Source of the DNA: Methanobacteriales archaeon HGW-Methanobacteriales-1
GTDB taxonomy: Archaea; Methanobacteriota; Methanobacteria; Methanobacteriales; Methanobacteriaceae
Assembly: GCA_002839705.1 (NCBI GenBank)
Contig: PGYO01000001.1
Location: 496,001 to 560,000 of the forward strand
Reading direction: 5' to 3'
Length of the DNA: 64,000 bases
Part shown: piece after piece, positions 42,329-61,253 of the stretch
Layout of the letters: each line of letters starts with the position of its first letter
How positions within the stretch are numbered: position 1 is the first letter of the stretch
The notes under the pieces: model-generated
What the model saw: the letters and a program-made list of their open reading frames with translations, nothing else
Databases searched by the model: none
What the model was told of the DNA's origin: nothing
Program-made: the position numbers and the translations under genes

Positions 42329-42407
42329 AATGGTCACCTTCTAAATCTTTAACGGTTTTTAGTCCATTTTTTAAATAAATATTTCTGTAAGGTTATTTTA
42401 ACCCATT

Positions 42408-44765
42408 TTAAATAAATAAAATCTCCTTTAGCCCGATGCAATTATTATTCCTATCCCAACCACTGGCCACATTAGGAATGGTTCTAGGGCCTTGTTGTGT
42501 CGTATAGCCTTCCATAACTGGTTTTAAACCAACTAATAGTAGAACGTCTTGTGAACGACTAAAGGCCACAAAATATAACCTACTCAGATCGTCAAAGGCT
42601 CGATCTTTAGAATCTCTACCTGGAACACCTAATGGTGAAAATTCTCTCAGTTCATCCTCTAAATTACAAGATTTTCCTCCTTCGTGGGGATAGCGCTTGA
42701 AGGCTTGGGCTATATGGTTCATTCTAAAATCAGAACCAATATCTACCACTACTAATGGAAATTCTAAGCCCTTAGCTTGATGAATAGACATTATATTTAT
42801 TCGGTTATCTGGTAGGGTGTCTAATAGGCCTTCGTCCACATCAATGGCTCCGGTGGCTATGGGAACAAATATATTCCAAATAGCCTCAGAAACTGATTTT
42901 TGTTCCAGCTCTGGAATTTCTGTGTCAAATATTATTTCAGCCCCAAAACTACTGAAAAGTCCCGTTTGTGAAATGGTACGAGTTATAGCCTCTAAATAAA
43001 CCAGTCCCTCCACATCCTCTTGCATAGGCTTAATCCAAGTAACTAATTTATAGGCCAGTTCCATAATGGTGATTTCTCTTTTCCAGGATTTTCTACCAAG
43101 AGGTTTTCTATTTTGCCAGGAAGAAACGAATTGAGTTAATGATACAGGATTATTAGGTTCGGGATTAGTTTCTACATATTCCTGGGCCTTTTGTCTCCAG
43201 ATGGTCATTCTTTTTTTAGCACTGTGGGGTAATTTCTCAATTTCTTTTTGATAAACACACCCGGGATCAATGCACTCTAATATGAGACCACATAAAATTT
43301 CGGATTCGTATATTCGCTCTAGATTTTGGCCTCGGGGATTGAATACTGGAATTTCGGGGTTTCCTTTTAATAATTCCTCTCTTAATATTAAAGGTAATTT
43401 CTTCTTTTTACCTCCACTAAGTTCCTGGGGAGAACTGGAGAGAATAGAAATATCAGTGGGAGAACCTTCTTGAGGGTCTACTTGGATTAATAGTGATTTT
43501 CCCTGATGTTTTATAGTTACTCCCTTACCATAGACTACATCTTTAATGAATTTACTCAAATCCTGGGCCAAACTATGAGTATCTTCTCTAAACATACCTA
43601 AAATAGGGAAATCACTGTAATTAGGATTTCTGGCCGGTTCTATGACTGGTTTATCTTTAACTCTAACTTGCTGGAACTGGGGGTCTAATTGAGCAAAGTG
43701 ATTGCAAAGCTTTACAATACTCTCGGTGGACCTATAATTTTTAGAAAGATTAATTAATTCAGGTTTAATATTTAATTGAGTTTCAATTCTTTCTTTAAAA
43801 TTAGTAAATAAATCTACAGTAGCTCCTCTAAATCTATAAAGTGATTGATCATCATCTCCTACTACCGTGACACTGCCCTGATTTTCAATGGCCGCTTGAG
43901 CCAGATAGAAGTAAATTTGCTCTTGTAAAAGATTAGTATCCTGGTATTCATCTACTAAGACTAATTTTAAGTTAGAAAGAAAATCATTTAATTTGCCAGT
44001 TTCTAGTTTATTTAAAAATTCTTCTTCTAACATGGCAAAATCATATAATAATCGGGACTCTAATTCATGTATATAATCGGCAATGGCCTCACAGGCTATT
44101 TTGGCCCCAGGATGTTCATGTTCACATTTAAGCTTATCAAAATCCACCTGATCATAATACATCCGATCCTTAATTTCTAAAAGCATTTTACTCATTTCAG
44201 AAACATTAAAATTGTATTTAGTCCCTCTGATTTTTACTAAAAACTCTTTTAAATCTTTTTCATGGTGCCGGTCTTTATCAAAAAGGCCCACCCTCATCAT
44301 GAGGGCATTGGCCACAAATCCTTCAATTACTACAGGCGGTGGAGAACCTGGGGCCCGATGAGTTTTTAGAATGTCTTCGGATATGCTATCTAGGGTTCCG
44401 GTGATTATTTGATTAAAATCCAGGGTTTTCAGTTTAGGATGGATTTTTTCATGACGGGGGTCTGCTAATAGCTCTTGTTTTATTTGGTCTCCCCAGGAGA
44501 GAATTCTAGAACGCATTTCTGCTGCAGCTTTACGGGTAAAAGTAGTGGCCAAAATGCTGGATGGGGTGATATCATCGACTAAAATGAATTTAAGAATTTT
44601 AAGAACCATGACCGTAGTTTTTCCACTGCCAGGGCCCGCCACTATGAATAGGGATTCATTTTTATGTGCGGAGATGGCCTGGTTTTGCGGTGGGTTCTGG
44701 TCTTCTTGGATGTTTCTTCCTAGTTTTTGGATTACTATTTGTTCGAATTGAGGCCAGTTGATCAT
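42408..44765 (-). CDS. UvrD/Rep-family DNA helicase
   Basis: A 785-residue superfamily 1A helicase: Walker A GPGSGKTTVM (44-53), ATTFTRKAAAEMRSR, LVDEYQDTNLLQ, GDDDQSLYRFRGATVD, NLSKNYRSTESI, SIHQAKGLEFPLVVVD and LYFVAFSRSQD. It ends shortly after, without a nuclease domain, and the nuclease is instead the next gene. The pair matches, in split form, the fused enzyme at 26217-29147, though the sequences are only distantly alike. Expected role: unwinding and resection of DNA ends. A GGTG site precedes the ATG. Confidence 0.9.
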   Translation of the reverse strand: MINWPQFEQIVIQKLGRNIQEDQNPPQNQAISAHKNESLFIVAGPGSGKTTVMVLKILKFILVDDITPSSILATTFTRKAAAEMRSRILSWGDQIKQELLADPRHEKIHPKLKTLDFNQIITGTLDSISEDILKTHRAPGSPPPVVIEGFVANALMMRVGLFDKDRHHEKDLKEFLVKIRGTKYNFNVSEMSKMLLEIKDRMYYDQVDFDKLKCEHEHPGAKIACEAIADYIHELESRLLYDFAMLEEEFLNKLETGKLNDFLSNLKLVLVDEYQDTNLLQEQIYFYLAQAAIENQGSVTVVGDDDQSLYRFRGATVDLFTNFKERIETQLNIKPELINLSKNYRSTESIVKLCNHFAQLDPQFQQVRVKDKPVIEPARNPNYSDFPILGMFREDTHSLAQDLSKFIKDVVYGKGVTIKHQGKSLLIQVDPQEGSPTDISILSSSPQELSGGKKKKLPLILREELLKGNPEIPVFNPRGQNLERIYESEILCGLILECIDPGCVYQKEIEKLPHSAKKRMTIWRQKAQEYVETNPEPNNPVSLTQFVSSWQNRKPLGRKSWKREITIMELAYKLVTWIKPMQEDVEGLVYLEAITRTISQTGLFSSFGAEIIFDTEIPELEQKSVSEAIWNIFVPIATGAIDVDEGLLDTLPDNRINIMSIHQAKGLEFPLVVVDIGSDFRMNHIAQAFKRYPHEGGKSCNLEDELREFSPLGVPGRDSKDRAFDDLSRLYFVAFSRSQDVLLLVGLKPVMEGYTTQQGPRTIPNVASGWDRNNNCIGLKEILFI

Positions 44766-45219: not shown

Positions 45220-46737
45220 TTATATTATCTTATCAAAATTCTGATTAAACATATTCAATGGATTCAAATTAATATAATTCTCATTTTCAAGGTGAGGTGT
45301 TTTAGCTGGATCCATAATACCGGGGTAAATAAGTAATCCTTCAACTTTGAACCCTTTAAAAAGATAAGAATCTTTTAAATCTTCCATATAACTTAGAACT
45401 TTATATAATGACTCTAATTTAGGTAGTGCACTCTTGCCTTTTTTCATAGTAAATTTAACATCACCAATTAATACTTTCTTTTGTTCAGGACTATCAATGA
45501 TAACACTAACATCTGGTTTTATTTTAGTATCTTTATCATTAAGATGAAGGCCATTAATTAATCCACCATAATATTTTGAATGTTCTGAAGGATCCAAATG
45601 CATTTCCCAGATAATTTTTGCTTTAGAATCATCTTTTTTTAGATTTAAAGCCATTTTTGCAGAAATTAAATTATAAGAACTAATTTTAACCTCATTAAAT
45701 TCAACATTCTCCATTTCAAAACCTTTTGCTTTGAATGTTTCCCAGATTTTGGCCACAGACCATATCTCGTAAATAGAATAAAACTCACTCAAAGCCATAT
45801 CAATGCCTTTTTCTATACGCAAAGCTGCTATTAAAGAAATATAGATTATGATATCTCGCATTATTTTAAATATTTTATAAATATCAAGATAAAATAGATT
45901 ATTTTGAGCAATTAACTTGGATCTAATTTCTCCATCATCTAAAACTTCATCAGAGTAAAAAGACCACAGATCATATTCATTAAGGAGAGAATTACTATTT
46001 TTAAATATTTCTTCTGTTTTATTTTTTAAGTACTTATTTTTTTTATCAAGCCTATCTTCAACCATTTTTGAAGCTTGCATCATAAAATAGGCACTTTGAA
46101 ACATCATTTTATTTAAAATAGTTTCATGAGTATGTTGTTTTTTAGTGTAGTGTTTGTAGGGCGTGGGATTGATTAATGATTTTAAAATAAGCTGTGAACC
46201 ACTGTAATCGGTATTTATTTGAACTTCTTTATGCAATGGGCCGTTATTATATACGCTGAATAATGATTTTTCAAGTAATTTTTGATTATAATTTAGAAGA
46301 CTAACTAAAAAATCGGTAGATTTAGGAAAATCATTTAAAATCTGATAAGAGAAACTATCAACTGATTTAATGTCTTTTTTAATATTTTTTATAATATAAC
46401 TTAAAAACGAGCTGATATCTTTAAAAATATCATTACTAATAAAGTTATAAACCTCTTCAGGAGTTTTTTGTCTCTTAGAAAGTTTCCAAGGCACAATTTT
46501 AATCTTTCTTATTATTTGATCGTCACGTTCTATTACTAAATCTCCGAATTTATCATATAATGGAGTATAAATGGTTTTTGAATTATCCCAAATTCCTAAG
46601 GATAATTTTTGCTGGTTTAAGAGCTTTTTAGCATTTAGGCCATTAATTTTTATTTTTTCCAAATCATCTAGATTATTAATGCGAGTTATACAACGATTAA
46701 GCTCTTTATCACAGTCCCAATAATATTCAGATTCCAT
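45220..46737 (-). CDS. McrC-like PD-(D/E)XK nuclease subunit
   Basis: A 505-residue protein. The N-terminal half is helical with an arrangement recalling DUF2357/McrC-like proteins; the C-terminal nuclease has KPDVSVII with Asp, then a turn and VLIGDVKFTMK with D-x-K, the PD-(D/E)XK signature. AVAKIWETF-like SVAKIWETFKAKGFE before it is also typical for this group. It overlaps the McrB-like gene by 11 bases, so the two are translated together and act as one complex. McrC supplies DNA cleavage when the partner NTPase translocates. Confidence 0.75.
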   Translation of the reverse strand: MESEYYWDCDKELNRCITRINNLDDLEKIKINGLNAKKLLNQQKLSLGIWDNSKTIYTPLYDKFGDLVIERDDQIIRKIKIVPWKLSKRQKTPEEVYNFISNDIFKDISSFLSYIIKNIKKDIKSVDSFSYQILNDFPKSTDFLVSLLNYNQKLLEKSLFSVYNNGPLHKEVQINTDYSGSQLILKSLINPTPYKHYTKKQHTHETILNKMMFQSAYFMMQASKMVEDRLDKKNKYLKNKTEEIFKNSNSLLNEYDLWSFYSDEVLDDGEIRSKLIAQNNLFYLDIYKIFKIMRDIIIYISLIAALRIEKGIDMALSEFYSIYEIWSVAKIWETFKAKGFEMENVEFNEVKISSYNLISAKMALNLKKDDSKAKIIWEMHLDPSEHSKYYGGLINGLHLNDKDTKIKPDVSVIIDSPEQKKVLIGDVKFTMKKGKSALPKLESLYKVLSYMEDLKDSYLFKGFKVEGLLIYPGIMDPAKTPHLENENYINLNPLNMFNQNFDKII

Positions 46738-48727
46738 TTATATCACTGGTACCAAAATTTAAGCTATTTAATTTAGATATGGAATTGTTTAGATCATGCC
46801 TTTCTAGAATAGTTCTAATATTGGAGTAATTCAAATCATTTTCAAAGAAAGGAACAATTAATGAGGAAATAGCTAAATCCGCGAAATTTTCACTGTAATA
46901 AGATGTGAATAACAAAGTATCTTTTAGAATACCAATTCCTAATGGCTTGATTTTATTTAGCTCCCCAAATACATCAATGATGATATCTGCTGTTTCGTAA
47001 TCGCCTTTATATTCAAATGATTTAAGGAAGTCATCTCTTTTGGAAACTTTCAATTCTTCAATTAAATCATTTTTGGTGGTTATTTCAATAAAGGTAAATC
47101 TTCGCTTTAAGGCATCCCCTAATTTAAATAAAAAGGTCTTATCATAAACATTAAGAGTTCCAATAATTCTAAACTTATCTAAAAGGTTTCTTAGATTATC
47201 TATGTCCAAGTCTTCATCTGCTTCTTTCAAAAGAATTTGCCGTATATGTTCAGCATCATTTAGGCGGTGTTCTCTTTCTAAATAAGTGAAAAATATTCCT
47301 AATGCAGTATCTATTTGTGTACGGTTGATTTCATCTAAAATTAAAACTTTCTCTGAAAGGAGTGCATCTAATAAAAATCTTTTTTCTTTAGAGTAAATTA
47401 GATTTCCATCTTTTACTTCAGGGACTATTCTACAGACTAAATCGTAGTAATCAGTTCCTGAGTGAACGGTGTATAGTGAATAGGCATTTTTACCTAGATA
47501 TTCTTCGCTGATGATTTTAGATAAAACTGTTTTTCCTGATCCTGGTGGGCCAAAGAAGATTAGGTTTTTTCCTCTTTGCAGTTCATTAAGGCCTATTTCT
47601 TTCTCTTGACTGTAAGTTTGATTTAAAAATTCTAGAAAATCATTTTTAGGTTTTGGAGATATATTTACACCTTCAGAGAATATTTCATAAAACTGATCTT
47701 TTTGTTGTGGATTTTTTTCTATAATAAATCTCATAAGTGCATTCCACATATCCTGAGGAAGCTTATAATGGGACTGTCCAAATTTCTTTTTTACTAAATT
47801 GCAGTCTTTAAGTTCAGGGTGATTAACTAGTTCTTCCCAGGTAACTGGATTTTCAAGTATAATTTTTTTTAGAATATTTACAATAGGTCCTTTAAATTCT
47901 GTATTTTTTTTATCATTATACGAATCATTTTGAGCCATGTAGATTTCAGATATGCTGCTTAAAGGCTGACTACAATAAAATAGAATAATATCTCCTTTTT
48001 TCAGGTTTTCAGGACTACTCCATATTTTTTTCTCATAATTTGTGAAATTTGGATATTTATCTATATTTACTGCAAAAATCCATTTTTGGATTGTAGATTC
48101 ATTTTTAATTTTGTAAACTTCTTTTTTTCCTTCATCTTCAGCAGCAATTGTATGTAAAAATAAATCAACATCGGTAAAAGTTAAATTAAGTTCTGGCTTA
48201 AGATTTTTTAATTTATTTATTAATTCTAAGACATTTTTATAGACATCGCCCCTTGTATCTCCTTTATGCGAGAAATCCCAACCAAGAACTTTAAAACCAT
48301 CTTCAGTTTTTCCATTCCATAAACAATACTTTTCAGGATTGAAATCCATTAAAAAAGCAGTTACCATTGCTTTTCCCATTCCATTTAAGTGTATTTCTCC
48401 ATCTAAAACACTATTTAATCTTTCTTTTATTGGTATTGTTTCATTTAGAAGGTAAAGAATTGTTTGACGAAATTTATCAATATTTTCAATTGGCCTAAAT
48501 TTATTTATATGAATGAGACTTTGCTTTTCACCAGTCCCACTATTAAAATAATCTAAATATCTATTTTTCAATTCTTCGTCAGACATATTTTCAATCATTT
48601 CAGGCTGAATCCACTCATGGTTCTTTTTTATAGCATTTAATCTCTTAGGAAGCCATTCTGTCCTCATTTGAGAGGAACTTTCAAACCATTCTAGCAATTT
48701 TCCAATTTTTTCATCTGATAAATGCAT
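46727..48727 (-). CDS. McrB-like AAA+ NTPase with EVE-like domain
   Basis: About 666 residues. Residues 1-200 form a helical N-domain (LNGMGKAMVTAFLMDFNPEK). Residues 217-300 (KWIFAVNIDKY, then LKKGDIILFYCSQP and FKGPIV) fit an EVE/PUA-like fold, which reads modified bases. Then the McrB-type motor: Walker A FFGPPGSGKT (395-403), Walker B LILDEINR (466-472), the GTLN sensor and LGDALKRRFTFIEI arginine finger. With the McrC-like nuclease this makes a type IV restriction system that would cut modified foreign DNA. ATG start near GTGG; a GTG three codons earlier is possible. Confidence 0.85.
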   Translation of the reverse strand: MHLSDEKIGKLLEWFESSSQMRTEWLPKRLNAIKKNHEWIQPEMIENMSDEELKNRYLDYFNSGTGEKQSLIHINKFRPIENIDKFRQTILYLLNETIPIKERLNSVLDGEIHLNGMGKAMVTAFLMDFNPEKYCLWNGKTEDGFKVLGWDFSHKGDTRGDVYKNVLELINKLKNLKPELNLTFTDVDLFLHTIAAEDEGKKEVYKIKNESTIQKWIFAVNIDKYPNFTNYEKKIWSSPENLKKGDIILFYCSQPLSSISEIYMAQNDSYNDKKNTEFKGPIVNILKKIILENPVTWEELVNHPELKDCNLVKKKFGQSHYKLPQDMWNALMRFIIEKNPQQKDQFYEIFSEGVNISPKPKNDFLEFLNQTYSQEKEIGLNELQRGKNLIFFGPPGSGKTVLSKIISEEYLGKNAYSLYTVHSGTDYYDLVCRIVPEVKDGNLIYSKEKRFLLDALLSEKVLILDEINRTQIDTALGIFFTYLEREHRLNDAEHIRQILLKEADEDLDIDNLRNLLDKFRIIGTLNVYDKTFLFKLGDALKRRFTFIEITTKNDLIEELKVSKRDDFLKSFEYKGDYETADIIIDVFGELNKIKPLGIGILKDTLLFTSYYSENFADLAISSLIVPFFENDLNYSNIRTILERHDLNNSISKLNSLNFGTSDINGI

Positions 48728-48796
48728 TATAACCACATCCAGTATTAAGAACCACCAATAGATAAATATTAAAAAAAGTTTTTCATATTTAAATAA

Positions 48797-49051: not shown

Positions 49052-49570
49052 CTATTTTTTTTCAATTTCAGTAAGAATTTTTGAAAATTGAGCATCATTA
49101 AGAACTGGTTTACCATTTAAACGAATTTCTTCACTTACATTAGCATAAAGCAGGCCTTTAGTCCTATCAACCATAACAGGTTTTTCCAGTTCATAAACTC
49201 TTAAGACCCACACATAGGCCTTACTGGACCCTAAATATGCTTTAACATGTTCATTAGTCCAGATGTGGAATTTATTTAAAGTCCCTATTCTAGAAGATGG
49301 TTTTTCAATTACTTTTTCCACAGTAGCGAAATATTTCACTTCTTTTTTATCACTATCTTCTTTAGGCAGTGCATTCTTTTTGGCAAATGATCGATCTTCT
49401 TTCTTAAAGCTGTCTAAAAAGTCATCTTTGTTGGCATAGCTGGTAGTGGGATATAAAAGAAACTTTTCCACGGAAGTATTGTATTTCCTTATCAAAATAG
49501 TCTGTTTACCTTGGCCTAAGGCCTCTAAAGTGGCATTCCATTCATTCAGGCATTTAGTTATAGTTTCCAT
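49052..49570 (-). CDS. DUF1802 family protein
   Basis: A 172-residue protein. EWNATLEALGQGKQTILIRK followed by FLLYPTTSY matches DUF1802, whose function is unknown. The C-terminal half is alpha/beta without motifs. Start at METITK, since AAGGG is 9 bases upstream but abuts an earlier ATG that overlaps the previous stop as ATGA. The tight junction with the DUF365 gene points to a co-translated pair. In this island it may be an adaptor or modified-DNA reader for the methylase-helicase module. Confidence 0.75.
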   Translation of the reverse strand: METITKCLNEWNATLEALGQGKQTILIRKYNTSVEKFLLYPTTSYANKDDFLDSFKKEDRSFAKKNALPKEDSDKKEVKYFATVEKVIEKPSSRIGTLNKFHIWTNEHVKAYLGSSKAYVWVLRVYELEKPVMVDRTKGLLYANVSEEIRLNGKPVLNDAQFSKILTEIEKK

Positions 49571-49575
49571 TAGAA

Positions 49576-49989
49576 TCATCCCTTATTTTTCTCAATCATC
49601 TTGAATTCGTCTTCATAGATGTACTTTCCAGATATGGCAATGAATCGTTTAGGAACCACCTTTTTATTGAACATCTGGAAGTTTTCAAACTCAATAACAT
49701 TCATTTCAGCCCTTCCTTTAGAATATTCCTTAAATTCTTCTGTAGTTAGCATCAATTGATTTTCATATTCTTTTAAAATATCAGATGGCTTCATTTTAAC
49801 TACTTGGATTACATCAGCCCATCCAGTATAGGCTTTAGCCCCGTGGGATTCATATATTATGAATTTATCTCCTTCAGAGACTCTTCCCAGATGTGATTTT
49901 CCTACAAAAACAGTTTTTCCCTTTTTATATATCCTTTCTGCATATTCGGTTGGTATGGGATGAGTTACCCCTTTAATTTCTTTATCCAT
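49576..49989 (-). CDS. DUF365 family PUA-like protein
   Basis: A 137-residue protein matching DUF365, an archaeal family with a PUA/ASCH-like beta barrel: HPIPTEYAERIYKKGKTVFV, then EGDKFIIYESHGAKAYTGWA and KRFIAISGKYIYEDEFKMI. PUA-like folds bind RNA or modified DNA bases. AGGTGA lies 5 bases before the ATG. It follows the SNF2 helicase by about 20 bases and overlaps the DUF1802 gene region, so all belong to one operon. Confidence 0.75.
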   Translation of the reverse strand: MDKEIKGVTHPIPTEYAERIYKKGKTVFVGKSHLGRVSEGDKFIIYESHGAKAYTGWADVIQVVKMKPSDILKEYENQLMLTTEEFKEYSKGRAEMNVIEFENFQMFNKKVVPKRFIAISGKYIYEDEFKMIEKNKG

Positions 49990-50010
49990 TTTTTCACCTT
50001 TTTATGATTA

Positions 50011-53000
50011 TTATGGAATTAACAACTCAATAGCTTTTTTAAGATCCCTCTCTAAAGGTAAATATAATTCTGGATCATTTCCGTAATGATATGAAATCCA
50101 TCTAACCGTACTTTCATCAACTTCCCTATAGAAATAACAGGCTTCTTCACCTGTTTTAGGACTTTCAATTATTTTAAAGAAAGGAACAATCTGTAAAGGT
50201 TTTAAAGTCTCTTTATTTATTAAATATAGGCTTCCCTTTTGCAAAGAATTATCAGTACTTAGTTTCATGGTTATGAAAGGAGTACGAGTACCAGTTATTT
50301 TCATTACATCGTATTGATACTTATCTTCTAATCTGGAGCCTTCATTAGGTATTATAAGGATATTATCAGTATATTTATCGGAAATTGTTCGCCAGGTTTT
50401 ATATAATTGTTTTTCTAGATATTGAAGATGTTCTTTTTCCATTTTCTCAGAAGAATCTCCACCATGGCCTTTATGGCGGTTACGGAAATCTTTAACATCA
50501 TAAAGTAAGTTATATATTTGTTTATTGGTTATTAGATCAATAAATTCTCTATTTTGTCCAGTAACGTCTAAAAACTTCTCAAATAATAATCTATGATTTT
50601 TGGAACCGCTACTAGCTAGGAATCTTATTTTTTTAGCTATTCTACCACCAAAAGTATACCATTTTCCAAAAGTAGTTTGTGTTATCCATTCCACACGATC
50701 TACTAAAATATTTGGATCTTCAAGAATATTTCGATCATTCTTAATGGCTTCAGCAGTTATACTTGTTATTATTGTACCATGGAACTCACATAATGATTCA
50801 AAATAATTAAAAAGGATTTTAACTTGTTTTGAAGGATCTCTTTCAGCATAATATTTCCATAAAATGGATGATAATGGATAAGGTAAGGTTTCTAACCAAT
50901 CAACAAATGTTGAACTCATAAGTTCTTCTTTGATTTCGGAATTAGTCTCTTCTTTTGGTTTTTCAGGAACTACTAATTTTGGTTTAGCGGATTTTGCTGC
51001 TTCATCAAGACCTGAAGGGTCAATTACTACTTTATAATCATCAAAATGAATAGTTTTAGCCACTTCACTGAGATTATTATAAGGGTCTAAAATTTTAATT
51101 AATTCAGGATTATCTAGGGCATTTTTAACAACATAAAGATAGAAGTTATCTGGATTTTCAGAGGCCACTCTCCATTCATTAGAAGATATTTGTATTTTAC
51201 CCTCTGTTTTAAATGATTTAGCTTCAATCATTCTTTCTTCATGATCAGATTTAGTTAAAATATCATATCCTCTGAATTCTTCTTTATCCAGTGAATTATA
51301 AATGGTTGATCTGCCCCAATCATTCTCTTTTTTAATTATGTAATCCACACCAGCTTTTTCCACTTCTTTTTTAATTTCTTCTATATTCAGGTCTGAAGCT
51401 CCTGCAGATCCTCTTTCTGGTTTTATAACTACCCCACAACTCAAAGGACCACATAATTCCCATTTAACATTACGAGAAGATTCTAATTCAGAAATTATCT
51501 GCTGATGTTTAGCTCTAAGTGATTTAACATTATCTTCATGCCCTGGAATCAAGAATCGTTGACCTTTATCTTCTGCTTTACGAATATTACGTTCTTCAAT
51601 AGCGATTTTACATTCAAAATCAGCATTTAATCTTTTAAGATCTAATTCTAAATCCTTTTCATGTTTATGTTGAGCAAAATCATTTAAATTCTGAACTTGA
51701 GAACTTATTTCATTTGTTAATTCACTTGTGTCCACAGAATCTATAAAGTCCATTACTTTTTGGGATACGTAATTTCCTTCTAAGGTATTGTAATCCCATA
51801 TTTGTAAAGGATCAATGACCTTAGATTTTTTCCCTGTTTTAAAAATAAGAATGGGCTCAGCATATACTTCTTGACCTAATGCATCAAAGAATCTAATAAT
51901 ATATGGTAAAAGCAGACCATTTTCATCTCCTTCTAAGATACTTATCCCCTGGAAGTTCATAGATTTCTCTAAGGCCATGTTCAAGGCTGGATTTCCGAGG
52001 GCAACATATTCATATTTCCTTTGAGCTTCCTTGTCAAAGGTACCTTGGAAATCATATATTTTATTTCGGTAATGAGAAATATTTTTAGCACATTTTGGTT
52101 TATCAACGTCTTCAGCAGGATTTAAATATAAAATATAAGTATTTTTACCAATTGGATCATAAGATCCGTTTTCTCTATTAGATAAATAACTTAATAGGAA
52201 TCTTTCCACATCAAACTTAACGACTCCGCTTTCTATGCTCCTAGTAGCTCTTAAAACTTCTGTTAAGTCAAAACGATTTTTAATCATGTAATGTTCAATA
52301 TTATCAATCAATTGTAATTTTTCTTCAATTAAACCTTGCACTCTGTCAGATGCATCAGTATCGCCTACTGTACGAGCTATTTTAAAGATTTCCATCATTT
52401 CTTTTTCAGAAATTAGTGAACCAATAACATCTACGGTTCGATCACCAAAAGCTAATCTTATTTCTTCTAATTTTTCCACTAACTTCTCTAAAACATGATT
52501 ATCAATGGCAAATCCAGTTTTATAATTATAAATAAAAACAGGTTTTTCCTGACCATACCTGTAGGCCCGTCCAATCCTTTGTTCTAAACGATTAGGATTC
52601 CAAGGCAGCTCATAATTAACTACAATATTAGCAAATTGGAGGTTAAGACCCTCACTAATAGCATCAGTACCAATTAAAATATTAGCAAAGTTTTCAAAGT
52701 TGTCTCTTTGAAGTTCCCGCTCTTTAATATCCATACTACCGTGGATTTCTACTACACTAAAACCTTCTTCTCCCAATATTCTTTTAAGATTAAACAATGT
52801 AGGTTTAAATTCAGTGAAGAGGATAATTTTATCTTCGGGTCTAGTTCTTCTAAGTTCGTTTAATCCTTCTATTAGTTTCAGGCTTTTACTATCTTCATTA
52901 GTATCAACTAAATTCTGACCCATGGATATAAGTTCTTCAAGTTCTTCAAGTTCTTCTTTTAATTCATCACCAATAGATGCAGTTGACCCAATGATAATGT

Positions 53001-54093
53001 CGTCATCTTCTTCCCTTGTTTTTGCATCTAAATCTTCTGGATGTTCAAAATAAGTACTCTCATCCTTAGTTTCTAGGAAAGGTTCCCATAATCTATTTTT
53101 TCTATTTTTTAAAGCTTGTAAACCTGCATAAATGGAAGAAGAAACCATTCTATGTAAAATATATAGAGCTAAAACAGCACTGGTTTTATTTCGTTCTTCA
53201 GCTTTACGGTAGTATTTGTTTACATAAGCACCCATAGCATCATAGAACTCTTCCTCTTCTTGAGTAAAATCAATATCAATAGTATATGGCTCTTCCCGGT
53301 GAGGGAATATATTCTGTCCTTTAAAATTAGTTATTTCATTTTTCATTCGCCGGATCATGATAGGATCTAGATAACGAATAAGTTCATAACGATCTTCAGT
53401 TAATTGTAAATTTTGATCGAGAAGTCCTAAAAGGTTTAAAAAGTTATCTAACTTACCATCGTGAGGAGTAGCAGTTGCAAGAATTAAATGACTTGAATTT
53501 TCACTTAAAACTTCACCTAAAGCAAATCTTAGGTTCCCATACTTTAATTTGTGAGCTTCATCAATAATTACTAAATCCCAGTGGGTATCTTTTAATAATT
53601 CTAATTTATCAGGATTTTTAGCATAATCCATAGAGGTTATACCTTTATTCACGTGTTTAAATGGATTATCTAATCCCACTTTACCCCTAATAATTTCAAA
53701 GTTTTCCCCAAATTTATATAATAATTCTTCTTGCCATTGGATCTGTAAACCAGCGGGACAAACAATTAACACTTTTTTGATTCGAGAAGACAATAGGAGC
53801 TCTTTTAGTACCATACCAATCATAATGGTTTTTCCTAACCCTACATCATCTGCAAGAAGTACTCGTATTCTTCCATCAGTATCTCCATGAGGCCTAAGCA
53901 TATTCATCATTTTGACAAAACTTTCTATCTGATGAGGCAGAGGATCAATTCTACCGGTAGCCACACAAGATAAAGGATCAAAAAGATGTTTTAGGTGGAT
54001 ACGATAAGCATCCACAGCTAGTTTAAGCTTAAGAGAAGGTTCAATTTGGTCATTTTCAAGTCGGGATTTTATTTCTTCTAAGGTTAGGACCAT
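50011..54093 (-). CDS. SNF2-family helicase with DUF3883 and HEPN-like domains (DrmD-like)
   Basis: A 1360-residue protein. Residues 50-560 form an SNF2 helicase: VGLGKT (84-89), LIVCPAGLQIQW, IIDEAH (176-181), ATATPHDG, GTDAISEGLNLQ and QRIGRAYRYGQ. From about 915 to 1020 lies DUF3883 (GYDILTKSDHEERMIEAKSF; its GYD...EAK pattern recalls PD-(D/E)XK). Near the end, VKDFRNRHKGHGGD holds R-N-x4-H (Arg1204, His1210), the catalytic pattern of HEPN RNases, in a helical region. The first two parts resemble DrmD of class 1 DISARM. It follows the methylase by 16 bases; AGGAG precedes the ATG. A motor for DNA sensing or translocation is expected. Confidence 0.85.
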   Translation of the reverse strand: MVLTLEEIKSRLENDQIEPSLKLKLAVDAYRIHLKHLFDPLSCVATGRIDPLPHQIESFVKMMNMLRPHGDTDGRIRVLLADDVGLGKTIMIGMVLKELLLSSRIKKVLIVCPAGLQIQWQEELLYKFGENFEIIRGKVGLDNPFKHVNKGITSMDYAKNPDKLELLKDTHWDLVIIDEAHKLKYGNLRFALGEVLSENSSHLILATATPHDGKLDNFLNLLGLLDQNLQLTEDRYELIRYLDPIMIRRMKNEITNFKGQNIFPHREEPYTIDIDFTQEEEEFYDAMGAYVNKYYRKAEERNKTSAVLALYILHRMVSSSIYAGLQALKNRKNRLWEPFLETKDESTYFEHPEDLDAKTREEDDDIIIGSTASIGDELKEELEELEELISMGQNLVDTNEDSKSLKLIEGLNELRRTRPEDKIILFTEFKPTLFNLKRILGEEGFSVVEIHGSMDIKERELQRDNFENFANILIGTDAISEGLNLQFANIVVNYELPWNPNRLEQRIGRAYRYGQEKPVFIYNYKTGFAIDNHVLEKLVEKLEEIRLAFGDRTVDVIGSLISEKEMMEIFKIARTVGDTDASDRVQGLIEEKLQLIDNIEHYMIKNRFDLTEVLRATRSIESGVVKFDVERFLLSYLSNRENGSYDPIGKNTYILYLNPAEDVDKPKCAKNISHYRNKIYDFQGTFDKEAQRKYEYVALGNPALNMALEKSMNFQGISILEGDENGLLLPYIIRFFDALGQEVYAEPILIFKTGKKSKVIDPLQIWDYNTLEGNYVSQKVMDFIDSVDTSELTNEISSQVQNLNDFAQHKHEKDLELDLKRLNADFECKIAIEERNIRKAEDKGQRFLIPGHEDNVKSLRAKHQQIISELESSRNVKWELCGPLSCGVVIKPERGSAGASDLNIEEIKKEVEKAGVDYIIKKENDWGRSTIYNSLDKEEFRGYDILTKSDHEERMIEAKSFKTEGKIQISSNEWRVASENPDNFYLYVVKNALDNPELIKILDPYNNLSEVAKTIHFDDYKVVIDPSGLDEAAKSAKPKLVVPEKPKEETNSEIKEELMSSTFVDWLETLPYPLSSILWKYYAERDPSKQVKILFNYFESLCEFHGTIITSITAEAIKNDRNILEDPNILVDRVEWITQTTFGKWYTFGGRIAKKIRFLASSGSKNHRLLFEKFLDVTGQNREFIDLITNKQIYNLLYDVKDFRNRHKGHGGDSSEKMEKEHLQYLEKQLYKTWRTISDKYTDNILIIPNEGSRLEDKYQYDVMKITGTRTPFITMKLSTDNSLQKGSLYLINKETLKPLQIVPFFKIIESPKTGEEACYFYREVDESTVRWISYHYGNDPELYLPLERDLKKAIELLIP

Positions 54094-54109
54094 TTTAATT
54101 CGCTCCTAT

Positions 54110-56638
54110 CTAATCAAATGTTGTTTGGCCTTTTTCAGGGATTAGGTCGGCTGATTTTCCGAGTATTTGGAGAGCTATTTGTTTTTCGGGATCTCCTGAT
54201 TCTAGGTGTTGGAATGCAGATAAGACATTAAAAATATCTAATGATGAGTATTGAATATTGTTTAGTGTAGACTTGAATTCGCGTTTACCACCGGATTCAT
54301 ATGCTCTCATTGATAAATGCACACAATCTATTAAAGTTCTATCATCAATATTCTCTCTTTCATTAAATTTTAATAATTTAACACCCTTAGTTTTACCTTT
54401 TTTAATGGATAATACGAGTCCTGACGAATCTAAAGTGCTTAGATCTATATTTAAACTTTTTGATATTAAATTGGCAGTATCAAAAGGCATAGCATCTAGT
54501 TCACTTAATCTACAATAAACATAGAATCTAGTAGCACCATCCAAGCTTTCAGAATTCTTAATGAACTTATCAAGTGTATATTGGACAACATAAATTTCTG
54601 CTAATTCAAGGATGTCAGTGACATTAAAATCTCCACTGATACTTTTTATTTCAGAGTATTGTGTTAATTGATTTAGAGTAGCTCCCATTGCTGCAACTGT
54701 TATATCAGCACCACGTAAACCATGATTCCACAATTCATTAAATTTTTCTTTTAAATCATCTGCTAAATCTTCTTTTATCTCTTCTATAAATCCCGACTTT
54801 TCTGTTTGGCGTTTTCTAGCTACAATCACTATTGAAGACATAATTGATGCTTTTCCCCTTGCAAGGGGGTTGTCGGGACTTTCTGTGTGTATTGGCCATG
54901 TTGCAGTGATTCTGAGTTTAGCATTTCTAAGTGCTGTTAAAACGAAATCCCATGCTTTAACACTACTATGGGCAAAATACATAATTAATATTCCGTCATC
55001 TGTTAACATTGAGTTCATTTTCTGACATGAAAGTGTGAACAGGTGCTGAAATAGCTCTTCACTCCGATTTCCTCCAACAGAAAGATCTTGAGACTTAGGA
55101 GTTTCTTTAGGTAAATCAATCAAATTTTGCAGTGCCCTTTTTTCAAAAACATAAAAAAACTCGCTCAATTCTGGATATTGAACATCATCAAAATATGGAG
55201 GATCAGTTACTATTATTTGTGTTTTAAATTCAGAATCTAGAATAGATCTATTTTCTATAATGATCTTTTTGTCATCTAAATTCTTTAATTTTTCAATAGA
55301 ATAATTTAAGCTTCTTAATATTCTATTATTAACGCTTATTAATGTTCCTGAAGCCTTTACAAAAGGATTAACCTCGGCATGATCCCACATCATCGAAATT
55401 CCTCGCGCTGTCAGAGCGTGCGCAACTATTTCTCTCTTTTGGATCCAACCAATGGATCTGCAGTTGTAATCTATATGTTTTCCAAGAATAAATGATAGAT
55501 AAGTAGCTATAGCGATTTTATAATCTTTATTTCCTTTAAAATCATGAGTATCAATATATTCTCTAATCAATTTTATAAGAGTAATAAACAACAGTCTTTG
55601 GCGTGGATTTAAAAATTTATACCAATATTTTAGATATTTTGTACTTCTTATGTCCCCTTCTGGCATTTTTTCAATAGGTATTAAATCTTCTTTGAGAAAT
55701 AAGTCCCAATTTTTATCTAAAATTTCTTTTGATTTTTGGAATGCTTTCAAATCATTTTCATTAGGTAAATCATATTCTTTACCTTTTTTTGCTAATAATA
55801 CAACTGCTAGGAGCATTTCTTCATCGTTTTCAAGTATTTCATTTTTAATATGGTCATTAGGAATTGTTTTACCACAATCTAGACATTTACCTTTTCCACC
55901 AATTACAGTCCTTTCTGGAACATCAGTACCATAACAAATTTCCATTTTTAATCTTTTCTCAGTGTCAATTATGGGTTTAAGGTAAATTTTCTTTTCTTTG
56001 GTATCAGAAAGCCACCATTTCCCTACTAACGGATTCTTAAATCCGCAGTCAGGACAAGAAACCATCCAAGCATGAATATATGCTGATACATCTTTACCAT
56101 TATGTTTGGGATAAAATTCATTTAATTCCGCTTGTGCTTTATCAAAAACCCAATTTAAAGCCAATTCTACATCTTCATATAATTTTTCACTATATTTTGC
56201 AGGATAATCTATTGTAGCATTTTGAATTAGATGGGCAACTGGATTATAATCATTGGAGAATGCAGTACATCCCATCCTAACTGCTTCAAATGGAATTGAT
56301 CCTCCGCCCGCAAATGGATCTAAAATAGAAGGTTTGTCATTCCCCCAAACTTCTTTGTATTTTTTTTTTAAGCTTTCTAATTGGCTTTTACTTAAATCAT
56401 ATTTATGCGCTCTTTTTTTTTTATCTCCTAAACCTAATAAACGTTTAAATTCAATAACATCAAAATCTTCAGGTAATAAAGCCCCTAATACTGTTGCTCT
56501 AGCAGCTACTAAAGGTTTCCGGGTCCACCAATAATGTAATTCAAAAGTTGGAGCTCTCCCTTTTTTTTCGATCTTAGACTCGGCACTAATTTCTTCAACA
56601 GGTAAAAATGTTTCAATTAACGTCCTTTTTTCTCCCAT
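54110..56638 (-). CDS. DUF1156 adenine-specific DNA methylase (DrmMI-like)
   Basis: An 842-residue N6-adenine methyltransferase. The N-terminus (FELHYWWTRKPLVAARATVL) is DUF1156. SAM-binding motif I is ILDPFAGGGSIPFEA (DPFAGGGS at 107-114); the catalytic motif is TDPPYFDD (DPPY at 479-482). Two Cys pairs (CPDC near 200 and CLDC near 260) form a zinc-binding insert. The domain order matches the DISARM class 1 methylase DrmMI and related modification systems. It would mark host DNA so that the helicase and nuclease partners spare it. GGTGAT is 4 bases before the ATG. The gene sits 12 bases after the DUF7680-like gene. Confidence 0.9.
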   Translation of the reverse strand: MGEKRTLIETFLPVEEISAESKIEKKGRAPTFELHYWWTRKPLVAARATVLGALLPEDFDVIEFKRLLGLGDKKKRAHKYDLSKSQLESLKKKYKEVWGNDKPSILDPFAGGGSIPFEAVRMGCTAFSNDYNPVAHLIQNATIDYPAKYSEKLYEDVELALNWVFDKAQAELNEFYPKHNGKDVSAYIHAWMVSCPDCGFKNPLVGKWWLSDTKEKKIYLKPIIDTEKRLKMEICYGTDVPERTVIGGKGKCLDCGKTIPNDHIKNEILENDEEMLLAVVLLAKKGKEYDLPNENDLKAFQKSKEILDKNWDLFLKEDLIPIEKMPEGDIRSTKYLKYWYKFLNPRQRLLFITLIKLIREYIDTHDFKGNKDYKIAIATYLSFILGKHIDYNCRSIGWIQKREIVAHALTARGISMMWDHAEVNPFVKASGTLISVNNRILRSLNYSIEKLKNLDDKKIIIENRSILDSEFKTQIIVTDPPYFDDVQYPELSEFFYVFEKRALQNLIDLPKETPKSQDLSVGGNRSEELFQHLFTLSCQKMNSMLTDDGILIMYFAHSSVKAWDFVLTALRNAKLRITATWPIHTESPDNPLARGKASIMSSIVIVARKRQTEKSGFIEEIKEDLADDLKEKFNELWNHGLRGADITVAAMGATLNQLTQYSEIKSISGDFNVTDILELAEIYVVQYTLDKFIKNSESLDGATRFYVYCRLSELDAMPFDTANLISKSLNIDLSTLDSSGLVLSIKKGKTKGVKLLKFNERENIDDRTLIDCVHLSMRAYESGGKREFKSTLNNIQYSSLDIFNVLSAFQHLESGDPEKQIALQILGKSADLIPEKGQTTFD

Positions 56639-56650
56639 TACATCACCATT

Positions 56651-57067
56651 TTATAAATACATGGCCTTAAAAGCTGTTAAAGCTTTATTTTTTAATGAAA
56701 GTATCTTCCATACCCAGAAAGATACTTCTTCATCTGATAATCTTCTTAAATTGTCAAAAGCTTCTTCAATTCTTAATCTTTCTTCAATACTGGAAGCTAA
56801 TTTCATGGCCACTAATATTCTCATACCCTCATCTACCTTGAAATCAAATTCATCTCCCCAGGATAATTTTTTCAAACCTTTTTCTTCTTGAAGCCTATCT
56901 GCAAAATTTTTGACCATTTCACTTCGCCAGGAAAAAATTATACTTATAGGGGTGGAATAACTTCGATTTATGCTTTCTATATGTTCAAACAGTTGCATAC
57001 TTCTGTTTTTGCCTTCTTTTAATCTTAAAGAATAATGAATACGTTTATCATTGGGACATATTTTCAA
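56651..57067 (-). CDS. DUF7680-like small protein
   Basis: A 138-residue charged, helical protein (begins MKICPNDKRIHYSLRLKEGK; ends SLKNKALTAFKAMYL). It matches the short proteins placed between DUF499 ATPases and DUF1156 methylases, which I take to be DUF7680. TTG start chosen because AAGGTG lies 5 bases upstream; the GTG used by a longer reading is inside that site. The gene is nine bases from the ATPase gene end and is very likely co-translated. Probably a small structural subunit or adaptor of the complex. Confidence 0.7.
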   Translation of the reverse strand: MKICPNDKRIHYSLRLKEGKNRSMQLFEHIESINRSYSTPISIIFSWRSEMVKNFADRLQEEKGLKKLSWGDEFDFKVDEGMRILVAMKLASSIEERLRIEEAFDNLRRLSDEEVSFWVWKILSLKNKALTAFKAMYL

Positions 57068-57076
57068 ATTCACACC

Positions 57077-60000
57077 TTAACTAGTTATAATTTCAATTTT
57101 AAATTCAATTTCATCTTCATATGATTTGAAGCCTTTAATTGATTCAATTAATGGAGATACTTCTATTCCATCCCCATAATCAAATTTAATAGTAGTTATC
57201 ACATCTTCTTGAACTAAATTAGATAATCTTTGCACTATATCTGATAGTTCATTCACATCCACTTTTTCAGTTTCTTTAATAGTTAAACCAATTTTATTTC
57301 CTTGCATAGAAGCTTTTATTATTGGATTATATCCTGTGGTTAAGGTACTAAATTTAAATCTTGCAGCTTGAAGTGTTTGAGTTGTGGGTAATCTAAATTT
57401 GACTTTTTGGAGCTTGAATGATTGCGATTCTACATCTTCCAAGAATTCGTCAATAGAAGTAAAAATTAATTTTTTAGATATTATCCATTTTTCACATTTT
57501 TCACATTTTTGAGCGGCTTTAGGATTTTTAGCCTTACAGTAAGGACATTCGCTGATATTTTCTTCATCTTCAGGTTTGACTAGATCTTTTGGAGGCTCAA
57601 TAATATCAAAAGATTCCCCACAGCAACTACATTTAATAGCACTTTTTGAATTTCTTCCTTTACAATGTGGACAAATTTTAGTATTTTCAACAATATCATT
57701 TAATTTATCAAAAAGATCATCAGCAATACTTTTAGGTAATATATTATACGCATCTTTAACTCCGCCTTTGATGGGCTGTTTATATTCAAAATCATTAGCA
57801 ATATTATCGAATTTACAAAGATTTATTTCATTAATATCTTGCATGGAACCTTTATATGAAGCAAATAGTCCCTGATCAACACCATTATTAACTGCATTTT
57901 TTAATACCTCTTTATTTTTGGGCAGAGGAAAAGAAGGATTATTTTGAAACTTTTCATTAAGATCTGAAAAAGTAATGGCTTTATCTTGTAAAACTCTGTC
58001 TGCAATAAAAGCAGGATGAAGATCTTCTAAAATTTTATCTGCCTTTTTAAGGGCCAGATAAACTTTCTCGGGAACTTTTTTAGCCCCTTCAAATCCACTT
58101 TGCAATGTAATATATTTTAAATCTTTACCTTTGGGATAAAATATCATTGAGTAACAAAGTTCAATAGTACTGCTAGAATTACTATTAGTTTCTTTTTCAT
58201 ACTCTTCAATTTTCTTTTTGTAAGTTTTCAGTTGTTCTTTAGTATCTGAAGAAGTTTTTAAATCCTTAATAGCTAAATAAAGGGCAATAGTATCTTCCAT
58301 TTTTAATATTCTTTCTTTTTTAGGAACTAATAAATAAATAAGATTCTGTTTTTCCCGGAAATTTTGGCCTTCTTTTTCTACAACATCTTTTAAAGCTGCA
58401 GATGCCTCCCCACCTTCAGTTGATGAAAGATTTTCATAATCAGTTACCACTAATGTAGGTTTAGTTGGATTTCTAACATCAGTTTCCCAAACTCGAACAT
58501 CAAAAATATCCGTCCAAAGCATCTTACTTATTCGGGACTTAATTTCTTGTTTCTTTTGGACTCTAGAAATACGGGTTTTCGCATCGTTAATAAGTTTTTT
58601 AATTGATATGTCTACAGTAAAGTACCAATGACCTGCAGTTTGTTTAAAATACCATAATCCATCAATACTATCCAATTTGTCAATTGATTCTTCTACATCT
58701 CCAGGATATAAAAGATTAGGTATAGAAACTGCTAGAGCAATGTCTTTTAGTGTTGCACCTCTGCTGTATTCTTTAGTAGAACCAATTAATGTGTATAAAT
58801 AAATTGTGGTTGCTATTCTGACGTTGGGCCCCATGAAAGTCATAGGATCTAATGATTGAGAGCGTGATTTGTGTTCATCATTCACTATATCTGTTCTTAT
58901 AACATTTTGGAATTCTCCACGGTCAATTCTATTAGTCAATTCATTATAAATTGAATTATCTAATAAATCAATGATTCCAGGAGTTATTATAAGATCAATA
59001 TCTAAATTATTTCTTTGTTGATATACACTTTTCACAACATGAGACAATAATCTTAAAACTCCCCTAGTTTTATTGAATTCACTAATAGTGGACACTCGAT
59101 CATACAAAATATCAATAATTACTGGATGAAATGGATATGCTCTTTCTAAAGATTTAAAATATTCTGTTGAATTTATTTCATCTGAAAGATAATTTGAGTT
59201 TTGAACATAGAATTTTTGCATTGATTCGGCAGCAGCATTTCCTAAGTTTTCATCAATATGTTCAAATAATCTTTTTTTAACAATTGTGTAAACATCATTT
59301 TTTTGCAATGGAACAACAAATGATCCTTCACGTGCAATAATAGAACTTACTTTCTCTTTGTATTCTTCGAGAAGTTCAGCCTCTCTTTTATATGATGGTT
59401 CATTTCCAGGTAATGTAAGTACCATCATTGCATTTTTTTTATTAGAAACAGCTTCTGTAATATTGTGCAAAAAAGAAATGGTTATTTCTGATAAATTAGT
59501 ATTTCCAACAGTAATTCCTTCAGAATCTTTTAAATAGTTTACTAATTCATCTAATAATATTAAAACAGGTTTATTTACGCTTTCTAAAGCTTTTGTAAGA
59601 ACTTTTGCAGGGGGTCTTTGCATATTAATATCATATTGCTCTAAAAGTTCATAACATCCTAATTGTCGCCCTATTTCTCCCCATATTGTTCTAAATTCAC
59701 TTTCCAATCCACTCAGATCTCTACAATCAATAGATGCCATGGCTACTTCAGGTATTTCACGCATATCTTTTTCTTGCAATATTTCTTGAATGTTCTCATT
59801 ATCTTTAAGTTCCCAGGAGTTTTGATATAAGTGATATAAAGCCACGAGAGTGTGAGTTTTCCCTCCTCCAAAACTAGTATCAATGACCATTAAGGGCTTA
59901 GCCTTTCCAGTACCTAATCTTTCTAATGATTCACCTAAAATACCCTGTAAGTTACGGGTCATATGAGTTAATTTAAAGAATTCTTTGGGATCTTGGTAAA

Positions 60001-60133
60001 TGGGATCAGCTTTTCCCTCTAAAAATGAAAAAAAACTTACTACAAATGAATTTTCTTGAATTTTGCCTTCTCTGATGTTTTCCCGTGGAACTAGTTTACC
60101 GGTTTCAAATGCTTCTTTGAGTTTCAATACCAA
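57077..60133 (-). CDS. DUF499 ATPase with double zinc ribbon
   Basis: About 1018 residues. The N-terminal ATPase matches DUF499: FKLTHMTRNLQGILGESLER, Walker A IDTSFGGGKTHTL (GGGKT at 89-93) and a Walker B in PVLILLDELVNYL. The middle is helical. Near residues 840-905 are two Cys4 zinc ribbons (CPHC..CSCC and CPYC..CEKC). The C-terminal part is a small alpha/beta domain. DUF499 ATPases are found with DUF1156 methylases and helicases in predicted defence loci, where they may drive DNA or partner remodelling. TTG start, with AAGGGGTG 6 bases upstream. It is the first gene of the operon. Confidence 0.85.
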   Translation of the reverse strand: MVLKLKEAFETGKLVPRENIREGKIQENSFVVSFFSFLEGKADPIYQDPKEFFKLTHMTRNLQGILGESLERLGTGKAKPLMVIDTSFGGGKTHTLVALYHLYQNSWELKDNENIQEILQEKDMREIPEVAMASIDCRDLSGLESEFRTIWGEIGRQLGCYELLEQYDINMQRPPAKVLTKALESVNKPVLILLDELVNYLKDSEGITVGNTNLSEITISFLHNITEAVSNKKNAMMVLTLPGNEPSYKREAELLEEYKEKVSSIIAREGSFVVPLQKNDVYTIVKKRLFEHIDENLGNAAAESMQKFYVQNSNYLSDEINSTEYFKSLERAYPFHPVIIDILYDRVSTISEFNKTRGVLRLLSHVVKSVYQQRNNLDIDLIITPGIIDLLDNSIYNELTNRIDRGEFQNVIRTDIVNDEHKSRSQSLDPMTFMGPNVRIATTIYLYTLIGSTKEYSRGATLKDIALAVSIPNLLYPGDVEESIDKLDSIDGLWYFKQTAGHWYFTVDISIKKLINDAKTRISRVQKKQEIKSRISKMLWTDIFDVRVWETDVRNPTKPTLVVTDYENLSSTEGGEASAALKDVVEKEGQNFREKQNLIYLLVPKKERILKMEDTIALYLAIKDLKTSSDTKEQLKTYKKKIEEYEKETNSNSSSTIELCYSMIFYPKGKDLKYITLQSGFEGAKKVPEKVYLALKKADKILEDLHPAFIADRVLQDKAITFSDLNEKFQNNPSFPLPKNKEVLKNAVNNGVDQGLFASYKGSMQDINEINLCKFDNIANDFEYKQPIKGGVKDAYNILPKSIADDLFDKLNDIVENTKICPHCKGRNSKSAIKCSCCGESFDIIEPPKDLVKPEDEENISECPYCKAKNPKAAQKCEKCEKWIISKKLIFTSIDEFLEDVESQSFKLQKVKFRLPTTQTLQAARFKFSTLTTGYNPIIKASMQGNKIGLTIKETEKVDVNELSDIVQRLSNLVQEDVITTIKFDYGDGIEVSPLIESIKGFKSYEDEIEFKIEIITS

Positions 60134-60479: not shown

Positions 60480-61253
60480 ATGATTAATGTAGAAAAAGAT
60501 TTATATCCTTTTGTTGAACGATTTCTTATAGAAAAAAAGAACTGTTTTAATGATTATGTGGGAAATGAGTTGCATATGGGTTCAGATAAAAGAATGAGGG
60601 CAGACATATATGGATATTCAAATAATAAAGATTCTAAATTAATCTACCTGCTAGAGGGTAAACACTACTTAGATGCAAGAAAAAATTTTAGTAAAGTACT
60701 CTGTGAAGCTCTACCTCTTCTGGAATATGCAGATCATGTTTATATTTTTGGAATAAGCAGCAATGATTTTGAAAAGCAAAATAAAAAATATTTTGAAATA
60801 TGTAAACTTTTAGGAATTGGAATATTAATTTTAGATGAATATGGGGAAATAAATGAAATATTAGTGGCAAAAAGAAATCAATTAGATGAATTTGATAGAA
60901 AAGAAGTATTATTTAGAATTTTTCTTAAAGGAGTCAAGTCACCAACAGCTAATTTAATTTTTCAGGCAGTATGTGAGTATATTAAATTAAATAGGCTTGA
61001 AAATAATTGTGTTCAGTTCATTGAAGTTTATCAAGAACTATTTTCTAAAGAAGAGTATAAAGAAAGCTTAGATCATATTTTTAATTCTAATTTTGTTTTG
61101 ACGGATATTGGAATGAGAAATGCATTTGAAAAAGAGTTTGGAAACTCAGAATTTGTTAAAATACAACCAATGAGTCGAAAGGTTGATGATTACATTTGCA
61201 TAACTCAAAAAGGGAGGGAACTAATTAGAAAATCTATTTTAATTATTGAGTAA
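60480..61253 (+). CDS. Putative PD-(D/E)XK nuclease-like protein with C-terminal winged helix
   Basis: A 257-residue protein. The N-terminal half reads as a restriction-endonuclease-like core: a first helix (DLYPFVERFLIEKK), then RADIYGYS with Asp42 and LIYLLEGKHYLD with E59-G-K61, giving D-x16-E-x-K, then an alpha/beta hairpin (YADHVYIFGISS, IGILILDEYG). The last 60 residues look like a winged helix ending YICITQKGRELI. The gene diverges from the DUF499 operon across the shared promoter region. It could be the missing nuclease of that system, or a regulator. No family was recognised for the whole protein. Confidence 0.65.
   Translation: MINVEKDLYPFVERFLIEKKNCFNDYVGNELHMGSDKRMRADIYGYSNNKDSKLIYLLEGKHYLDARKNFSKVLCEALPLLEYADHVYIFGISSNDFEKQNKKYFEICKLLGIGILILDEYGEINEILVAKRNQLDEFDRKEVLFRIFLKGVKSPTANLIFQAVCEYIKLNRLENNCVQFIEVYQELFSKEEYKESLDHIFNSNFVLTDIGMRNAFEKEFGNSEFVKIQPMSRKVDDYICITQKGRELIRKSILIIE

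Follow-up and report, generated by a model that had tools for sequence, protein, structure and literature searches.

Which defence system is encoded by the tightly packed operon at positions 60133 to 49052 (minus strand) of the stretch studied here, and which of its proteins cuts DNA? The stretch (hereafter the window) comprises 64,000 nucleotides of the methanogenic archaeon HGW-Methanobacteriales-1 (contig PGYO01000001.1, positions 496,001 to 560,000). A preliminary description, made from the sequence alone, read the operon as DISARM-like but devoid of DrmA, DrmB and DrmC, and left the site of cleavage open. The operon is actually a complete Hma system with a literature of its own, also known as the DUF499-centred BREX-related (BR) system. 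The system itself is already known, and the window carries a variant that lies between two published subtypes. The best explanation of the whole is an Hma/BR defence system that would work like restriction-modification (probability about 0.72).

Identification of the operon

Three adjacent genes matched the PADLOC models HmaA (2.9e-109), HmaB (9.8e-77) and HmaC (1.5e-95), the set that defines Hma. The name Hma dates from 2021 (Payne 2021, PMC8565338). A 2026 BREX survey groups such systems as BR Types 1–3 and cites reports from 2013 and 2020 (Rakesh and Krishnan 2026, PMC12839542). An archaeal operon of COG1743, DUF499 and an SWI2/SNF2-nuclease with EVE proteins is also on record (Bell 2020, PMC7641849). 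It shares the core genes and the neighbouring EVE-like protein with the window and differs in the small subunit DUF7680, which is unmentioned in the literature searched. The assignment to a modification-based defence locus, already made in the preliminary description, is borne out by these matches and publications.

A rival reading is a DISARM operon, degenerate or divergent, from which DrmABC has been lost, and the helicase does match the DrmD models of PADLOC (1.5e-89). However, HmaA outscores DrmD, and the NCBIfam DrmD score of 319.9 bits is about half of the cut-off of 610. DISARM does not include DUF499 or DUF1156, and the same gene set, again with no DrmABC, occurs in intact relatives from many phyla. 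DISARM genes were found neither within the operon nor nearby. The preliminary description had named drmABC just outside the window as the finding that would overturn its reading. The adjoining 20 kb (nine open reading frames (ORFs) of at least 200 amino acids) gave no match to a DISARM model and only weak matches to pAgo and DpdF models. MZB/DUF1998 was matched only once in the genome, by a 970-amino-acid ORF on a different contig. A DISARM derivative was rejected on the DrmD score, the adjoining genes and the position of the MZB match, and we consider it extremely improbable. The ATPase, methylase and helicase of BREX type 3 are published as homologous (PMC12839542). The source genome differs from BREX type 3, and from BR Type-3, in that no PglZ match was found in it.

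The six genes encode, in order, an ATPase, a small protein, a methylase, a helicase and two further small proteins. Their spacing, earlier given as 9–20 bases, consists of four gaps (3, 12, 16 and 21 bases) and a single overlap of 4 bases, and the genes are presumably co-transcribed. The gene order is not due to chance, because it recurs in independent genomes. The source genome has a size of 2.57 Mb, and the locus in the window is its only DUF499 locus. The DUF499 AAA+ ATPase (HmaC; Pfam DUF499 3.5e-56) is encoded by the first gene, as described before, at 57077..60133 or up to 60142. GTG 60142 and TTG 60133 are alternative starts, and a Shine-Dalgarno-like GGGGTG precedes the latter. TTG 60133 is the most likely start because GTG 60142 falls within this GGGGTG, which agrees with the operon end given earlier. 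The ATPase has Walker A (FGGGKTH) and Walker B (LLLDE) motifs and Cys4-type zinc ribbons close to its C-terminus; no HEPN domain was found at its N-terminus. The DUF1156 methyltransferase (HmaB; 54110..56638; Pfam DUF1156 4.7e-15) carries the motifs DPFAGGGS and DPPY, whose columns are invariant in the methylase alignment, and it is predicted to be of the N6-adenine type. Sequence searches of the ATPase and the methylase against solved structures gave no match, and a scan of viral contigs with the methylase found no relatives.

Survey of related loci

One genome per prokaryotic species was scanned with the methylase alignment, which yielded 80 loci, and loci from plasmids and related genomes were added. 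These loci fall into two classes. Class I has the order helicase (with DUF3883), methylase, ATPase and lacks a small gene. In class II the order is ATPase, DUF7680, methylase, helicase; the helicase has no DUF3883 and has a long N-terminal region, in which weak Pfam PLD matches were seen in the two helicases examined. All 28 complete class II loci contained DUF7680, whereas the 36 loci in which the methylase precedes the ATPase all lacked it. In total, DUF7680 occupied the position between ATPase and methylase in more than 30 loci with a helicase devoid of DUF3883. Every complete locus with the order ATPase, methylase, helicase has DUF7680, namely the 28 class II loci, the window and locus L026. 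The last two combine the order and small gene of class II with the DUF3883 helicase of class I.

L026 lies on a contig of a WOR-3 metagenome-assembled genome, and its methylase is 44% identical to that of the window. Although this genome is filed as a WOR-3 bacterium, it holds archaeal-looking genes (DUF365 and several VapBC pairs) and may be mis-binned. A third locus, L052 from Sulfolobales, has the ATPase–DUF7680 pair and a nearby DUF3883-type helicase that was identified by its conserved catalytic columns. Thirty genomes were then reached through these loci. Twenty-four of them had been chosen for an ATPase–DUF7680 locus, and DUF7680 was detected in 23 of these; the remaining six gave no match. 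The one missed is the genome of L026, whose divergent copy scored 0.012. DUF3780 was found in 0 of the 30 genomes, a soft result because the same search gave nothing in the control genomes either.

The window was compared with the published subtypes. It shares with Type-1 BR the DUF499 ATPase, the DUF1156 N6-methylase and the SNF2 helicase with a C-terminal DUF3883/PD-(D/E)XK domain. Type-1 differs in its helicase-methylase-ATPase order, its helicase N-terminal region assigned to TUDOR, and its three genes with no small subunit, whereas the window has the order ATPase-DUF7680-methylase-helicase. Judging by length, and leaving domain identity aside, the TUDOR-type region is absent from the window. 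The number of residues ahead of helicase motif I is 82 in the window, 61–82 in the archaeal trio (window, L026 and L052), 115–148 in class I and 292–351 in class II, and the in-frame start of the window helicase is already the furthest upstream possible. Type-2 BR (DUF499-DUF3780-DUF1156-PLD/HKD helicase) shares with the window the gene order, the slot for a small subunit and a helicase with no TUDOR region. The window differs from it in having DUF7680 instead of DUF3780 and in keeping the DUF3883 nuclease. An HKD nuclease at the N-terminus of the helicase is absent, since 82 residues before motif I leave no room for it.

The DUF7680 small subunit and its relation to DUF3780

The 140-amino-acid protein (56651..57073) can be assigned to DUF7680 (PF24728), as the preliminary description had suggested. 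It matched the family with an E-value of 7.3e-5 and 23.4 bits, just under the curated cut-off of 24, and the conserved C-terminal pattern EE..YW..K of DUF7680 is seen in the alignment with it. Comparison of the archaeal trio with bacterial DUF7680 by hhalign gave a probability of 95% and an E-value of 2.8e-8. A sequence search with the window protein alone, covering plasmids and 152 genomes from the same phylum, gave no hit beyond the source genome, and the family was reached through synteny. The AlphaFold2 model (predicted local distance difference test score (pLDDT) 92.8) begins with three strands and a helix, followed by one more strand and four helices, which makes four strands and five helices in total. 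It matched no fold in the PDB (best E-value 0.13).

A rival view of DUF7680 makes it a passenger with a toxin-like or regulatory role and not a working subunit. Some of these operons do contain unrelated small genes, VapBC for example. Their presence is sporadic, whereas DUF7680 stands behind the ATPase in essentially every class II locus across many phyla, so a passenger role seems very unlikely. VapC-type toxin-antitoxin genes were observed beside the methylase in three Hma-like operons (L026:9372-9991, L015:22877-23556 and L022:14450-15093).

In Type-2 BR, the slot between the ATPase and the methylase is filled by DUF3780 (PMC12839542), which was also seen in the Type-2 loci of this analysis. 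The window protein has no Pfam DUF3780 match. In a profile comparison of 10 DUF3780 with 30 DUF7680 sequences, the two families were co-linear over 144–149 columns with local P values of 6e-5 to 4e-4. The real scores were 31.2 to 36.0, the best of 100 shuffled controls reached 29.8, and reversed columns gave nothing. DUF3780 has been described as a four-stranded sheet with five helices and has been found fused to ASCH domains (PMC12839542). The strand and helix counts of the DUF7680 model are the same, and ASCH-fused DUF7680 proteins were found in two loci (L071:6863-7912 and L073:3350-4321). DUF7680 and DUF3780 are probably distantly related.

Phylogenetic analysis

Unrooted IQ-TREE trees of the methylase, the ATPase and the helicase were built with Type-2 (DUF3780) rows included. 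The order was the same in all three: Type-2 (DUF3780), class II (DUF7680), the archaeal group, and class I. The window, L026 and L052 make up the archaeal group, joined by L027 in the methylase tree. This group was monophyletic in all three proteins (support 99/100, 97/96 and 96/86). The split between archaeal plus class I and class II plus Type-2 had supports of 89/82, 92/84 and 100/100. Class I was monophyletic to the exclusion of the window (100/100 in two trees and 100/99 in the third). The approximately unbiased test rejected a grouping of the archaeal rows with class II in the methylase tree (p = 0.022). Larger quick trees built with no Type-2 rows placed the archaeal rows beside class II by midpoint rooting; they agree with the IQ-TREE order, since the order is the same once they are unrooted. 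By sequence, the window thus sits between the Type-1 and Type-2 architectures.

It follows from the tree order that each trait changes once. On this unrooted order, the nuclease type would have changed between class II and the archaeal group. The small subunit and the TUDOR region, the latter judged by length, would both have changed on the branch that links the archaeal group with class I. A published guess holds that DUF3780 replaces the TUDOR region of the helicase. This guess can be tested apart from the nuclease because the small subunit occurs here with no HKD domain.

Several points weigh against the explanation favoured here. Only the window and L026 show the complete hybrid. L052 has the ATPase followed by DUF7680, but its methylase and helicase lie on the opposite strand. 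L026 and L052 are on long branches and their tree positions are less sure. The TUDOR region is judged by length only. One of the 100 shuffled controls came near the real score (29.8 vs. 31.2), a first comparison, limited to four sequences of DUF3780, yielded 1.7%, and no signal against DUF3780 appeared when the archaeal trio was used by itself. Published accounts of these systems, like the other literature searched, have no mention of DUF7680. A further reading makes the window an unrecognised fourth BR subtype, with a DUF7680 core that would replace TUDOR whatever the nuclease, a second, HEPN-like effector and a DUF365–DUF1802 reader pair. We regard this as a tentative and rather doubtful proposal.

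The nuclease and the C-terminal module of the helicase

The SNF2 helicase-nuclease (HmaA; 50011..54093; 1360 amino acids) has Pfam matches to SNF2-rel_dom (6.2e-19), Helicase_C and NOV_C/DUF3883 (5e-16). DUF3883 occupies residues 911–1000, after the SNF2 core, and was described in the 2013 HEPN paper as a novel restriction endonuclease domain fused to these SNF2 helicases. Its residues E923, D944, E957 and K959 (E957-x-K959) are invariant in the 42 class I and archaeal helicases aligned, giving an intact PD-(D/E)XK arrangement in 42/42, as expected of the C-terminal domain of Type-1 helicases. Cleavage most likely resides in this domain. The site of cleavage is thereby largely settled; DUF3883 had been one of three candidates, and its candidacy stands. 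The HEPN-like motif named beside it does exist. The third candidate, the divergent gene at 60480-61253 (plus strand), was rejected as a nuclease partner and as part of the system, because it matched no PADLOC or Pfam family and none of the fetched loci contains a homologue. The gene does show a D...E-G-K pattern that may be PD-(D/E)XK-like.

The window helicase has about 325 extra C-terminal residues (residues 1035–1360; 50014..50991) past the end of nearly all class I relatives. This module is HEPN-like by motif alone (RNRHKGH, R1204 to H1210) and may be a HEPN RNase. It had no match in Pfam or the PDB, and a scan of viral contigs found no relatives. In other archaea and in actinobacteria, HsdM-like methylases and UvrD-type helicases end in homologues of the module, and RN-x4-H is invariant in all six aligned homologues. 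Its single-sequence AlphaFold model (pLDDT 39.8) was unusable and no fold was obtained.

Such a module would allow a response dominated by abortive infection, in which the ATPase senses invasion, the HEPN-like module cleaves RNA and DUF3883 is secondary. The invariant motif fits this, as does the occurrence of the module in several predicted defence proteins, and for related systems the 2013 HEPN paper reported fusions of HEPN with SNF2 helicases and with DUF499 ATPases. However, among Hma loci only the window helicase carries the module, its fold prediction failed with no Pfam or PDB match, and every member of the family has an intact DUF3883. We judge abortive infection as the dominant mode to be unlikely and favour DNA cleavage by DUF3883. 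The module appears to be an undescribed mobile C-terminal module (RNxxxGH) of SNF2 and UvrD-type helicases and HsdM-like methylases, found in the window and at L131, L132, L133, L134, L024 and L025. Genome G146 has a UvrD-type copy no more than about 10 kb away from its Hma locus.

Accessory and neighbouring genes

Two accessory genes follow the helicase. The first encodes a DUF365/EVE-like (PUA-like) protein (49576..49989; Pfam DUF365 5.9e-15, EVE 0.0015; PADLOC PDC-M11B 7.1e-10), predicted to read modified bases. The second encodes a DUF1802 protein (49052..49579; Pfam 1.9e-28), and the two genes share the 4-base overlap. L026 also has a DUF365 homologue beyond its helicase. A sister species has the same overlapping pair and no Hma match. 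There, the pair is divergent from a methylase/DUF4391/SNF2 system that resembles the PADLOC type-III methylase and HKD+Snf2 models. Since the pair adjoins another system in the sister species, it is a module that joins different modification systems. By analogy with the EVE literature, it probably adds recognition of modified bases.

Other candidate defence genes surround the operon. Just downstream, at 45220-48736 (minus strand), lies a McrBC-like pair, probably a separate type IV system. The McrB-like member (46727-48736) is an AAA protein that also has an EVE domain. The McrC-like member (45220-46737) carries a D-x-K motif and gave no Pfam match at 0.01. Further on, at 41138-44765 (minus strand), a UvrD-like helicase gene adjoins a PDDEXK_1 nuclease gene; the pair is AddAB/Gabija-like and has a GC content of 0.37, above that of its neighbours. 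In locus L003, a nucleotidyltransferase–HEPN-like gene pair of the MNT/HEPN toxin-antitoxin type (L003:10628-11726) lies about 10 kb beyond the window, and a Schlafen/AlbA-like regulator is found at L003:6681-8021.

Proposed mechanism and significance

The protein families suggest the following mechanism. The DUF1156 methylase would mark host DNA, by prediction at N6-adenine. The DUF499 ATPase and DUF7680 would assemble on DNA as a sensing platform that recruits or licenses the SNF2 translocase. The DUF3883 PD-(D/E)XK domain of the translocase would then cut unmarked invading DNA, which would protect the host from viruses. In this scheme, DUF7680 would stand in for the N-terminal TUDOR-type region of the Type-1 helicase and may act as a structural or mark-sensing adaptor. 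The DUF365–DUF1802 pair would serve as a plug-in for the recognition of modified bases.

The defence system in question is reported from thousands of taxa. With DUF7680, a widespread family for which our search found no literature, a new component joins its parts list. The window separates the nuclease switch (DUF3883 or HKD) from the exchange of the TUDOR region for the small subunit, two changes that are always coupled in the published subtypes. If the window does represent a fourth subtype, one operon would check both missing marks and foreign marks.

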